A stretch of DNA of 35,006 nucleotides from Cystobacterineae bacterium (GTDB lineage Bacteria; Myxococcota; Myxococcia; Myxococcales; Myxococcaceae): the NCBI GenBank assembly GCA_009782175.1, contig WRKR01000021.1:10389-45394 (forward strand), given 5' to 3'. The notes beneath the pieces were generated by a model. It did no database searches and was not told the DNA's origin. It saw only the letters and a program-made list of their open reading frames with translations. Below, piece after piece: positions 31,456 to 34,796 of the stretch. The first letter of the stretch is position 1; each line of letters starts with the position of its first letter. Position numbers and translations under genes: made by a program.

Positions 31456-32817
31456 ATGCCTACCCTTTTGGAAAAAACGAAAGCTTGGAATGTAAGCCAG
31501 CTGCAAACGGACTCAAAGCCTTTGGAAATTTCTGCTTTCCTCGCCAATGGCCATGTGGAAATGGCCGGGCGGCAATTGTTGGATTGGTGCAGTTTTGACT
31601 TGCTGGGCCTGGCAAGTGACATTCGCGTGAGGGAGGCGGCAAGCTCCGCACTCAAACGTTTGGGGCTTGCGCCCATGGCAGGCTTGCGTTTGCAGACGGA
31701 GTTGGAGCAGCGCATGGCCGCTTTTTTGGGGACGGAGGACGCCCTTTATAGCGCCTTGCCCTCGCCCATTTTTAACTCCCTGCTGGAGTTGGCCAGGGAC
31801 TGCTGGGCAACCGAAGTGGAAGCCTGGCCTTTTTTGTCCTTCCCCCAGCGCTGCCAGGGCAGCTACCTTGAGTTTTTGGAAAACCCTTCGCCGCCGCCCT
31901 CTCTGGTGTTGAGTTGTGGCATTTCCCCTTTCCACGGGCATGTGGCGCCCCTCCCTCAACTCCTTCAAAAACTACGCAGCAACAGGGGAAGCCTCTGTGT
32001 GGACGAAAGCCTCAGCATGGGTATTTTGGGAAGCGACGGCAAAGGCATGGAGCAGCATTTCCACCTGCCCAAAGGGGAAACGTGGAAGGTGTGTGACTTG
32101 GGGCAGGTGCTGGGGGCGCAGGGTTTTGTTTTCGGAGGGCCCCAATCCGTCACCAGCTATTTGAGGAACCACCCTCTGGGTAGGCAACACCGCTGGGGAC
32201 AGGCCCCCAACTTGGGGGCGGCGCTGCGTGCCCTCAGCTTGTTGGAGGCTGAAACGTGGCGGAGGGAGCGCCTCTGGGAGGTTGCCGGGCAACTGCACCA
32301 AAGCCTCAGGGAGTTGGGCTTTGACGTGGGGCCCTCAGCTACACCACTCATTCCCTTGTGGGTGGGGAATGAAATGCGCCTTGAAGCTTTGAGGGAGGCT
32401 TTGCGAAAGTCCGGACTCTGGCTGAGGGAGCATTTATGTGGAAGGCACTCCTATTTTATTTTGTGCCCCAAGGCTACGCACGCTGATGAGGAGTTGAGGA
32501 GGGGCTTGGAGTTGCTTGCCCATGTTGCGCGCCGCAAAGCGTGGAATGAGCCCACCCAGGCTGTTGAGAAAAATTTCCACTTGGCCAATGCTCAACCCTC
32601 TGTTTTGGCTAACCCGGCACTCCCGCATTGGATGCCACACTCACCTCTGCCTCAAACCCAGGCCTCCTGGGAGGCCGCCAAAAAAACCACCCTCAAGCAG
32701 CTTTTCCAACAAGCCAGCACCTCCGAGTTTATGGAGGAGCTTATTTGGCAACTCATTAGCCTCAACAAACCCAGCTTGCGCCAAAAAGCCGCGGACTGGC
32801 TGCTTAAACGCCTCTAA
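31456..32817 (+). CDS. Alpha-oxoamine synthase-like protein without catalytic lysine (serine palmitoyltransferase LCB1-like pseudoenzyme)
   Basis: The product is 453 residues from ATG 31456; TTG starts at 31405 and 31417 are possible. The fold II aminotransferase features of the 2-oxoamine synthase family are recognisable: CSFDLLGLASDIRVREAASS, GTEDALYS, CGISPFHGHVAPLPQLL, DESLSMGILGSDGKG and GFVFGGPQSVTSYLRN. In active members the DE-H-S motif stacks a histidine on PLP and a lysine follows about 32 residues later. Here the histidine is Leu186, and the lysine position is Gln217 (DLGQVLGAQGF). The same two losses mark eukaryotic LCB1/SPTLC1, which has ESLSFGVLG. A 100-residue C-terminal extension is extra. 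No active partner is in this window. Confidence 0.65.
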   Translation: MPTLLEKTKAWNVSQLQTDSKPLEISAFLANGHVEMAGRQLLDWCSFDLLGLASDIRVREAASSALKRLGLAPMAGLRLQTELEQRMAAFLGTEDALYSALPSPIFNSLLELARDCWATEVEAWPFLSFPQRCQGSYLEFLENPSPPPSLVLSCGISPFHGHVAPLPQLLQKLRSNRGSLCVDESLSMGILGSDGKGMEQHFHLPKGETWKVCDLGQVLGAQGFVFGGPQSVTSYLRNHPLGRQHRWGQAPNLGAALRALSLLEAETWRRERLWEVAGQLHQSLRELGFDVGPSATPLIPLWVGNEMRLEALREALRKSGLWLREHLCGRHSYFILCPKATHADEELRRGLELLAHVARRKAWNEPTQAVEKNFHLANAQPSVLANPALPHWMPHSPLPQTQASWEAAKKTTLKQLFQQASTSEFMEELIWQLISLNKPSLRQKAADWLLKRL

Positions 32818-32968: not shown

Positions 32969-33040
32969 GGGCGGATAGCTCAGCGGTAGAGCGTCGCCCT
33001 TACAAGGCGAATGTCACAGGTTCAATCCCTGTTCCGCCCA
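32969..33040 (+). tRNA. tRNA-Val (anticodon TAC)
   Basis: The cloverleaf is complete: acceptor GGGCGGA/TCCGCCC, D arm GCTCAGCGGTAGAGC, anticodon arm TCGCC-CTTACAA-GGCGA, and T arm CACAGG-TTCAATC-CCTGT. The discriminator is A, and CCA is not encoded. Confidence 0.97.
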
Positions 33041-33207: not shown

Positions 33208-33281
<74 letters not shown>

Positions 33282-33335
33282 CTTCTGGGTTGAGTTTTGG
33301 GGGCTCTCACCCCAGGTAGCTTAGGGAGAGAGCAA

Positions 33336-34796
33336 ATGAATTCAAGGAAGTTATGGATGCTGGGGATGTTTCTGGTGCTGGGGATGGCTTGTGAGGATAG
33401 GGATGAGAAAAGAGCGAACCCCCTTCTCAACACGGAGGGGCCGTGCCCCGGCCACGCAGCTCTCAAAGTGGGTCAGCACAAAGACTGCCCCATTCTGGTG
33501 AGCCAAAGCAACATTCTGGCCTTCAACACCTATGCAAACACGGACCTGGGCCGCACAAGGCACTATAGGTTGGTTGAAGACGTTGTTTTGAGCGGTACAA
33601 ACAATTGGGAGGCGATAGGCACATATAGACCCCGTGCCCCATTTATGGGCAGCTTTGATGGGGATGGCCACAGCATCCGCAACCTCAGCATTGAGACGGC
33701 TGACAGCTACCAAGGCATGTTTGGCTATATGGACACAGACGCTGTGGTAGAAAAACTTGCGCTGGAAAACGTCAACCTCACCGGCGACACCTATGTCGGC
33801 GGCCTGGTGGGGAACAACCACGGCACGGTGCAATACAGCTATGCCACGGGCAATGTCAACGGCAGCTCGTTTGTTGGTGGCCTGGTGGGCGCTAACTCTG
33901 GCACGGTAGAGCACAGCCATACCGCAGACAGCGTTATTACCAGCGACACCTATGTCGGCGGCCTGGTGGGGAACAACCACGGCACGGTGCAATACAGCTA
34001 TGCCACGGGCAATATCAACGGCAGCTGGTTTGTTGGTGGCCTGGTGGGCGCTAACTCTGGCACGGTGGAGCACAGCCATACCGCAGGCAGCGTTATTGCC
34101 AGCGGCACCTATGTCGGCGGCCTGGTGGGCTATGGTGGCTATAGCGATAGTATTGTGGCCAACAGCTATTCCGAAAGCAACGTTAACGGCGGCGGCCAGA
34201 ATATAGGCGGCCTGGTGGGCAATAACTCTGGAACGGTGCAAAACAGTTATGCCACGGGCAATGTGAGTGGCCCCTCCTCTGTCGGCGGCCTGGTGGGCAA
34301 TAACTCTGGAACGCTGCAAAACAGCTATGCCACGGGCAATGTGAGTGGCACCCACTCTGTCGGTGGCCTGCTGGGCCATAACTTTGAAGGCATGGTGCAA
34401 AACAGCTATGCCACGGGCAGCGTCACCAGCAGCGACAGCTGTGTCGGCGGCCTGGTGGGCTACAACCACAGTGGCACGGTGCAAAGCAGCATGGCGCTGG
34501 GCCCAAGGGTGAGTGGCACCATCAGCGTTGGGCGTGTGGCGGGAATTAATTTTGGAGGCACGCTGGTTAACAACTTTGCGTTTGCGGGCATGCTCAATGG
34601 AGCGGGCAACACCCAGTGGGACAACACCTACGCGAATGCCGTCAGCGGTGCAGACAGAACTGCCGAGGAGTTGAAAACAAGAGGTGGTTTCCCCTCTGAG
34701 CTCACCTCCCCACTGTGGACATATGAGGAAGGCAGCCTCCCCGGCCTCGGCCACACCGTCCCCATGCCGGATTGGATGGCCAACAGCACACCGTGA
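33336..34796 (+). CDS. GLUG-repeat surface protein with lipoprotein-like signal
   Basis: The product is 486 residues from ATG 33336, with TTAGGGAGAGAG upstream. The signal reads RKLWMLGMFLVLGMAC; Cys19 could be lipid-modified, though the residue at -3 is Gly. After about 120 residues (FMGSFDGDGHSIRNLSIE) come some nine repeats of about 25-27 residues: VGGLVGNNHGTVQYSYATGN, GGLVGANSGTVEHSHTA, GGLVGNNSGTVQNSYATGN. This is the GLUG motif family, which forms right-handed beta-helix-like stacks in bacterial surface and adhesin proteins. Adhesion is inferred from the family. It ends near a conserved tail without a visible anchor. Confidence 0.85.
   Translation: MNSRKLWMLGMFLVLGMACEDRDEKRANPLLNTEGPCPGHAALKVGQHKDCPILVSQSNILAFNTYANTDLGRTRHYRLVEDVVLSGTNNWEAIGTYRPRAPFMGSFDGDGHSIRNLSIETADSYQGMFGYMDTDAVVEKLALENVNLTGDTYVGGLVGNNHGTVQYSYATGNVNGSSFVGGLVGANSGTVEHSHTADSVITSDTYVGGLVGNNHGTVQYSYATGNINGSWFVGGLVGANSGTVEHSHTAGSVIASGTYVGGLVGYGGYSDSIVANSYSESNVNGGGQNIGGLVGNNSGTVQNSYATGNVSGPSSVGGLVGNNSGTLQNSYATGNVSGTHSVGGLLGHNFEGMVQNSYATGSVTSSDSCVGGLVGYNHSGTVQSSMALGPRVSGTISVGRVAGINFGGTLVNNFAFAGMLNGAGNTQWDNTYANAVSGADRTAEELKTRGGFPSELTSPLWTYEEGSLPGLGHTVPMPDWMANSTP
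33786..34103 (+). repeat. 159-bp in-gene tandem duplication
   Basis: The unit 33786-33944 recurs at 33945-34103 with very few differences, and a third, partial unit begins at 34104. Each unit spans 53 codons, two GLUG motifs, so the frame is kept. Confidence 0.85.

Follow-up and report, generated by a model that had tools for sequence, protein, structure and literature searches.

The α-oxoamine synthases (AOS), to which the serine palmitoyltransferases (SPTs) belong, work as dimers whose active sites lie between the two subunits, and roles in SPT have been described for His159, Asp231, His234, Lys265 and Arg390 (PMC6148460). In SpSPT, His159, the histidine of the His-Ala-Ser motif, is the ring-stacking histidine, while His234 forms a hydrogen bond to the hydroxyl of PLP (PMC6148460). 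The SPT of Sphingobacterium multivorum (3A2B, 8GUH) is an active homodimer of about 398 residues. The only established dead AOS subunit is, to our knowledge, eukaryotic LCB1 (SPTLC1; 7K0I_A, 6M4O), which has the AOS fold without the PLP lysine and is the membrane subunit of the obligate LCB1/LCB2 heterodimer and raises the question of how such a pair evolved from an active homodimer. A further bacterial system, PfSgaA/PfSgaB of Pseudomonas fluorescens MYb115, is encoded by separate PKS and AOS genes and yields PKS-derived sphingolipids, its AOS having SPT activity (PMC12134224).

In the present study, a gene was analysed that lies in the window, i.e. the whole stretch of 35,006 nucleotides investigated, which derives from a genome of 2.7 Mb (G000). 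Its product shares with LCB1 the AOS fold, the missing PLP lysine and a DESLS-like motif, but its ancestor appears to be the SPT of the bacterial family to which it belongs. The N-terminal transmembrane helix of LCB1 was absent from residues 1-30 (MPTLLEKTKAWNVSQLQTDSKPLEISAFLA), which are not hydrophobic on direct reading. The window protein also differs from the S. multivorum enzyme, its best structural match, which is catalytically active and has no C-terminal extension, and from the subject of PMC12134224, which concerns an active AOS, while the window protein is predicted to be a pseudo-SPT. A literature search for a bacterial pseudo-SPT or AOS pseudoenzyme yielded no earlier account, which is weak evidence given the partial coverage of subscription journals. 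PKS-derived sphingolipids are already known, while a bacterial pseudo-SPT retained after such a takeover appears to be new.

The gene and its surroundings

The reading frame is unbroken and encodes 453 amino acids. The following features were assigned, positions being those of the window:

31456..32817, + strand: predicted pseudo-serine-palmitoyltransferase CDS, 453 aa plus stop; its ATG start is aligned with that of G002, a relative from the same genus
31546..32541, + strand: predicted AOS-fold core, residues ~31-362; pLDDT mostly 80-96, resembling SPT/KBL/ALAS/BioF structures
31750..31896, + strand: residues 99-147, the His-Ala-Ser segment of active SPT; motif absent, among the most accelerated parts (about 11x)
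32002..32013, + strand: residues 183-186 (D-E-S-L) at the D-D-A-H of active SPT; L186 replaces the catalytic His
32104..32106, + strand: Q217, codon CAG, at the position of the PLP-Schiff-base lysine in the alignment to active SPT
32458..32460, + strand: I335, aligned with the arginine that binds the serine carboxylate (Arg390 of SpSPT)
32542..32814, + strand: C-terminal linker and extension, residues 363-453; also present in active Myxococcaceae SPT and, at about 4x, accelerated less than any other part
32969..33040, + strand: tRNA-Val(tac), 3′ of the dead gene; context only
33208..33282, + strand: tRNA-Asp(gtc), 3′ of the dead gene; context only

The window protein and its G002 counterpart are 69% identical over the full length. 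It matched the NCBIfam models for BioF, SPT and KBL, always below their curated cut-offs (bioF at 1.1e-31), and the closest PDB entries by sequence were Sphingobacterium SPTs. The order dead gene, tRNA-Val, tRNA-Asp is identical in G002 and the window. A nudix-rpoZ locus precedes the dead gene in the window; other genes occupy this place in the same-genus genomes G001 (L201:2277-5386) and G002 (L202:1779-3482). The dead gene of G002 is found on a different contig from its nudix-rpoZ locus, yet both tRNA genes still lie downstream of it. Past the two tRNA genes, the window encodes a repetitive protein with five GLUG motifs (PF07581) at 33297-34796.

Loss of the active site

Active-site positions were read from an alignment to the active SPT of Myxococcaceae. 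An earlier reading of the window from its letters only (the sequence-only reading) had claimed that the PLP-binding lysine is lost, and this was borne out, as the alignment placed Q217 where a conserved active-site lysine was looked for. The same reading had taken L186 for a lost stacking histidine. A histidine has indeed disappeared at this position, but it corresponds to the hydrogen-bonding His234 of SpSPT; the true stacking-histidine segment, His-Ala-Ser, has been rebuilt in the window protein, so that the stacking histidine is lost as well. Only D183, the equivalent of the PLP-N1 aspartate Asp231, survives in the window protein. Because the other four of the five tabulated catalytic residues are replaced, SPT activity, i.e. 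the PLP-dependent condensation of serine with an acyl thioester, is predicted to be absent.

The aspartate equivalent to Asp231 is kept in six of 20 dead proteins found (see below), the window protein included. The lysine position is K in all active SPTs and in all 21 PKS-AOS proteins compared; in the 20 dead proteins it is occupied by Q, T, G, P, L, E, A, R, Y or a gap, and no new residue has been fixed there across the clade. In these 20 proteins, moreover, none of the lysine, His-Ala-Ser, DxxH and Arg sites showed a conserved polar replacement. The SPT motif FSAS-TP has been erased in the dead clade; in AOS dimers, the stretch in which it lies touches the PLP of the partner subunit.

Predicted fold

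An AF2 model of the window protein was built from 30 window and locus sequences and had a mean pLDDT of 81.7. Structural comparison (Foldseek, VIA-align) gave the bacterial SPT 3A2B as the top match (Z 39.5, 354 residues aligned, 21% identity). The top matches were SPT, ALAS, KBL and BioF structures at Z 35-39.5, and the chains of human SPTLC1 ranked lower than 3A2B, at Z about 35. On this model, the core of the window protein has the fold-type-I AOS fold, and the claim that the family layout is kept was supported both by the NCBIfam matches and by the fold match to 3A2B. Helices were predicted in the extension at residues 402-419, 422-434 and 439-452 with low to moderate confidence.

Descent from the SPT of Myxococcaceae

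Intact dead homologues were found 20 times, the window protein included, and all of them in Myxococcaceae, which confirms that the dead synthase is real and not a chance finding. In the protein tree, which contains several long branches and no LCB1 sequence, the dead proteins were monophyletic (100/100) and sister to the active Myxococcaceae SPT, with the SPT of family f5 outside. The locus evidence concurred. Active SPT operons have the order spt, CerS-like GNAT, CerR-like SDR (e.g. L107, L106), and MlaC/HpnM-like, aldolase and, in some genomes, HpnN-like MMPL genes lie near them. The dead gene adjoins those MlaC, HpnN or aldolase genes without the GNAT and SDR operon partners, and it is the ortholog of the Myxococcaceae SPT, occupying the ancestral locus. 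Active and dead forms are alike in locus, fold and C-terminal extension, but the Lys, HAS, DxxH and Arg residues and the following CerS-like and CerR-like genes belong to the active form only.

The sequence-only reading had called the protein LCB1-like. Taken as a statement on ancestry this was not supported, since protein tree, locus and extension all tie the dead clade to the SPT of its own family; the resemblance to LCB1 most likely arose in parallel. The DESLS motif on which the comparison with LCB1 had drawn is present in the window protein, but it occurs in only three of the 20 dead proteins (G000, G002 and G004). The C-terminal extension had also been considered unusual; active Myxococcaceae SPTs carry the same one, and it is an ancestral and ordinary part of these enzymes.

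In the rpoB tree, all dead genomes fell into a single clade (98/96), whose sister lines and outgroup have active SPT. Loss of catalysis therefore occurred a single time, in the clade ancestor, and at least ten genera have since inherited the dead gene. A recent duplicate of a still-active SPT was ruled out, as no genome contained both forms and the dead gene lies at the ancestral locus.

Selection on the dead gene

The frames of all 20 dead genes were open and dN/dS between dead pairs ranged from 0.10 to 0.35; for the window gene and its G002 counterpart, dN/dS was 0.14 at a dS of 1.75, which is near saturation. An active AOS is present in the genome, and the signs of decay that the sequence-only reading had named as counter-evidence were not seen; a decaying pseudogene was ruled out by the open frames and the dN/dS values. 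The gene is under purifying selection. The rate of the dead proteins relative to active SPT was raised about 11-fold around the lysine and His-Ala-Ser sites and about 4-fold in the linker and extension, with a core/extension acceleration ratio of 1.6 (5-95%, 1.2-2.1). Four residues of the linker and extension, A377, W392, E427 and W431, were invariant in dead and active forms, and the dead gene survived genome reduction to 2.7 Mb. Open frames, dN/dS, the slower extension, the invariant residues and the retention in a reduced genome together argue that, while catalysis was freed from selection, something in the scaffold and extension is still constrained.

A probable PKS-AOS route to sphingolipids

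The G000 genome was searched for an active synthase, as the sequence-only reading had proposed. It contained only two genes of the AOS family, the dead gene and one active AOS, which is fused to a PKS. The PKS-AOS protein comprises 2313 aa with KS, AT, KR and DH followed by the C-terminal AOS; the AOS domain keeps the Lys, His and Arg, and an ACP-like GFDSL motif could be read directly between AT and KR. The gene is adjoined by a fatty-acyl-AMP ligase (FAAL) gene and two genes for CerS-like GNATs, which share 42-49% identity with the CerS encoded in active operons. These GNAT, FAAL and PKS-AOS genes form a putative sphingolipid cluster (L041:2812-14684, on G000:C38) that is conserved across the dead-SPT clade. 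Like the SgaAB type, the cluster combines a bacterial PKS with an AOS whose catalytic residues are kept, but the AOS of G000 forms one protein with the PKS, and the CerS-like GNATs are adjacent; the Pseudomonas system makes sphingolipids, and for the G000 cluster a sphingoid-base product is predicted from its genes. From homology and gene context, the sphingoid base of the dead clade is most likely made by a FAAL-(ACP)-PKS-AOS megasynthase. Such a route is plausible because the AOS of PfSgaAB was shown to have SPT activity in P. fluorescens. The findings point to PKS-based synthesis of sphingolipids in Myxococcaceae.

Of the 96 genomes in a census, 20 had the dead gene, 71 an active SPT, five neither and none both, the lysine itself having been seen in 21 of the active genomes and a score band used for the others. 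PKS-AOS orthologs (at least 61% identity) were found in 21 of the 96 genomes, none of which had an active SPT. The FAAL-PKS-AOS cluster was present in 19 of the 20 dead genomes, a count that includes G003, whose cluster is cut by the contig end, and in 0 of the 71 active-SPT genomes. G003 was rejected as a case of a dead gene without PKS on account of this contig break, and the sole dead genome without PKS-AOS was G117, the assembly of which is 85% complete. CerS-like GNATs were found in every dead genome tested except the incomplete G117. Three PKS-bearing genomes without the dead gene are all incomplete assemblies (79-94%). The dead gene was not seen in G001, in an assembly of 230 contigs that is 94% complete; the nudix-rpoZ locus of G001 is without it, and the dead gene of G002 also lies elsewhere. 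Because the dead genomes form one clade, the association of dead gene and PKS-AOS counts as one evolutionary event, not as nineteen.

PKS-AOS orthologs with 52-61% identity were also found in nine genomes of the sister family f7 and in one f3 genome, and the nine f7 genomes had no SPT-type gene, dead or active. Two f7 loci (L168, L169) show PKS-AOS, a CerS-like GNAT and a CerR-like SDR; with an SPT-type gene lacking, this looks like a complete replacement of SPT. In related lineages, SPT is active, dead or missing; each of these states is placed on the species tree, and the likely enzymatic takeover by PKS-AOS is visible in the same bacterial series. The suggested PKS-based route includes a genome-reduced lineage, and the same-genus relative G002 (record WQYA01000067.1, isolate Emb289P3bin65) appears to come from a termite gut, as we take the isolate name to denote an Embiratermes termite-gut MAG.

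Large-genome relatives have a cyclopropane-fatty-acid-synthase-like gene 3′ of PKS-AOS (L165:13956-14834, called as CMAS; L160:13700-14578, L161:4958-5836 and L166:3302-4177, called by sequence likeness). This gene was not seen beside PKS-AOS in G000 or G002. In the relative G032, a PKS protein of 1778 aa (G032:C10, L207:6210-11546) ends in tandem AOS domains. The first is degenerate, with the histidine of His-Ala-Ser changed to R, DEAH to DEDN and the Arg to I while the Lys is kept, and the second is intact. This arrangement resembles a dead/active pairing in that a degenerate AOS stands beside an active one in the same bacterial family, but the degenerate domain lies in cis, has retained its lysine and belongs to the PKS-AOS type, whereas the window protein is of the SPT type.

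Possible role of the pseudo-SPT

That the window gene encodes a pseudo-SPT maintained by selection is, judging from the comparisons above, highly probable. For its role, the best explanation, to which we give a probability of about 0.5, is retention of a cofactor-free protein that scaffolds or regulates PKS-based sphingolipid synthesis; a non-catalytic mechanism of this kind has an even chance of being correct. PLP binding and catalysis would have disappeared from the Myxococcaceae SPT ortholog a single time, in the clade ancestor, and the FAAL-(ACP)-PKS-AOS megasynthase would have taken over sphingoid-base synthesis. The pseudo-SPT would still fold as an AOS-type dimer without PLP and, catalysing no reaction itself, would scaffold or regulate the synthesis of ceramide lipids, with its C-terminal extension docking it on a pathway partner or on the membrane. 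A CerS-type GNAT would be the first candidate for this partner because the active SPT is encoded beside it, and CerS-like GNATs are candidate partners common to SPT and dead-SPT genomes. The structural role of the old SPT may thus have outlived its chemistry, and the survival of a displaced synthase as a regulator becomes testable. Two observations count against the explanation, namely the f7 relatives that have PKS-AOS without any SPT homologue and G001, in which the dead gene was not detected; the far faster evolution of the dead proteins than of active SPT also fits a weak or peripheral role. A more far-reaching version, in which the displaced SPT, its active site lost, serves PKS-AOS and the ceramide synthase machinery as a subunit devoted to regulation or scaffolding and would be an independently evolved bacterial counterpart of LCB1/LCB2, is put forward tentatively and is rather doubtful.

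The dead protein might instead pair with the AOS domain of PKS-AOS, or tune its activity, as LCB1 does with LCB2. PKS-AOS is the sole active AOS in G000, its cluster accompanies the dead gene in nearly all dead genomes, AOS enzymes are dimers with interfacial active sites, and G032 joins a degenerate and an intact AOS in one PKS protein. Nevertheless, a heterodimer is unlikely: the motif FSAS-TP has been erased, the co-occurrence is a single event, and megasynthases are normally dimeric already. Because the sister family f7 has PKS-AOS without the dead protein, an obligate dead/active heterodimer in particular is unlikely, while facultative pairing is possible. A PLP-independent enzyme or a ligand-binding protein, newly evolved on the inherited fold, would agree with the retained and confidently predicted fold core, but it is quite improbable given that none of the former catalytic positions has acquired a conserved polar residue in the 20 proteins. 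Even less probable is a slowly decaying, functionless SPT relic. The lost catalytic residues, the fast evolution and the absence from the G001 assembly would suit it, whereas frames intact in every dead genome at synonymous divergence up to near saturation, the dN/dS range, the residues invariant across both forms and the retention in the 2.7-Mb genome speak against it.

In comparison with the scaffold or regulator of PKS-based synthesis that we favour, participation in lipid transport is improbable, the dead protein then moving sphingolipid to the outer membrane together with the MlaC/HpnM-like protein and the HpnN-like MMPL. Several large-genome relatives have the two genes on the flanks of the dead gene, and in some active genomes at least one of them borders active SPT; according to PMC11087976, no transporter for bacterial sphingolipids had been identified. 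These neighbours are, however, ancestral to the locus and may only mark synteny; the window gene adjoins neither of them, and a search for the specific HpnN-like ortholog in G000, G001, G002, G007, G015 and G023 was negative. As it was not found in G000-G002, transport is a weaker rival than pairing with PKS-AOS. MlaC/HpnM-like and/or HpnN-like MMPL genes could be observed flanking the SPT locus, active or dead, at L047:8102-12534, L046:5138-7615, L050:2745-5180 and L053:5723-13152, and these two proteins are candidates for the bacterial sphingolipid transporter.
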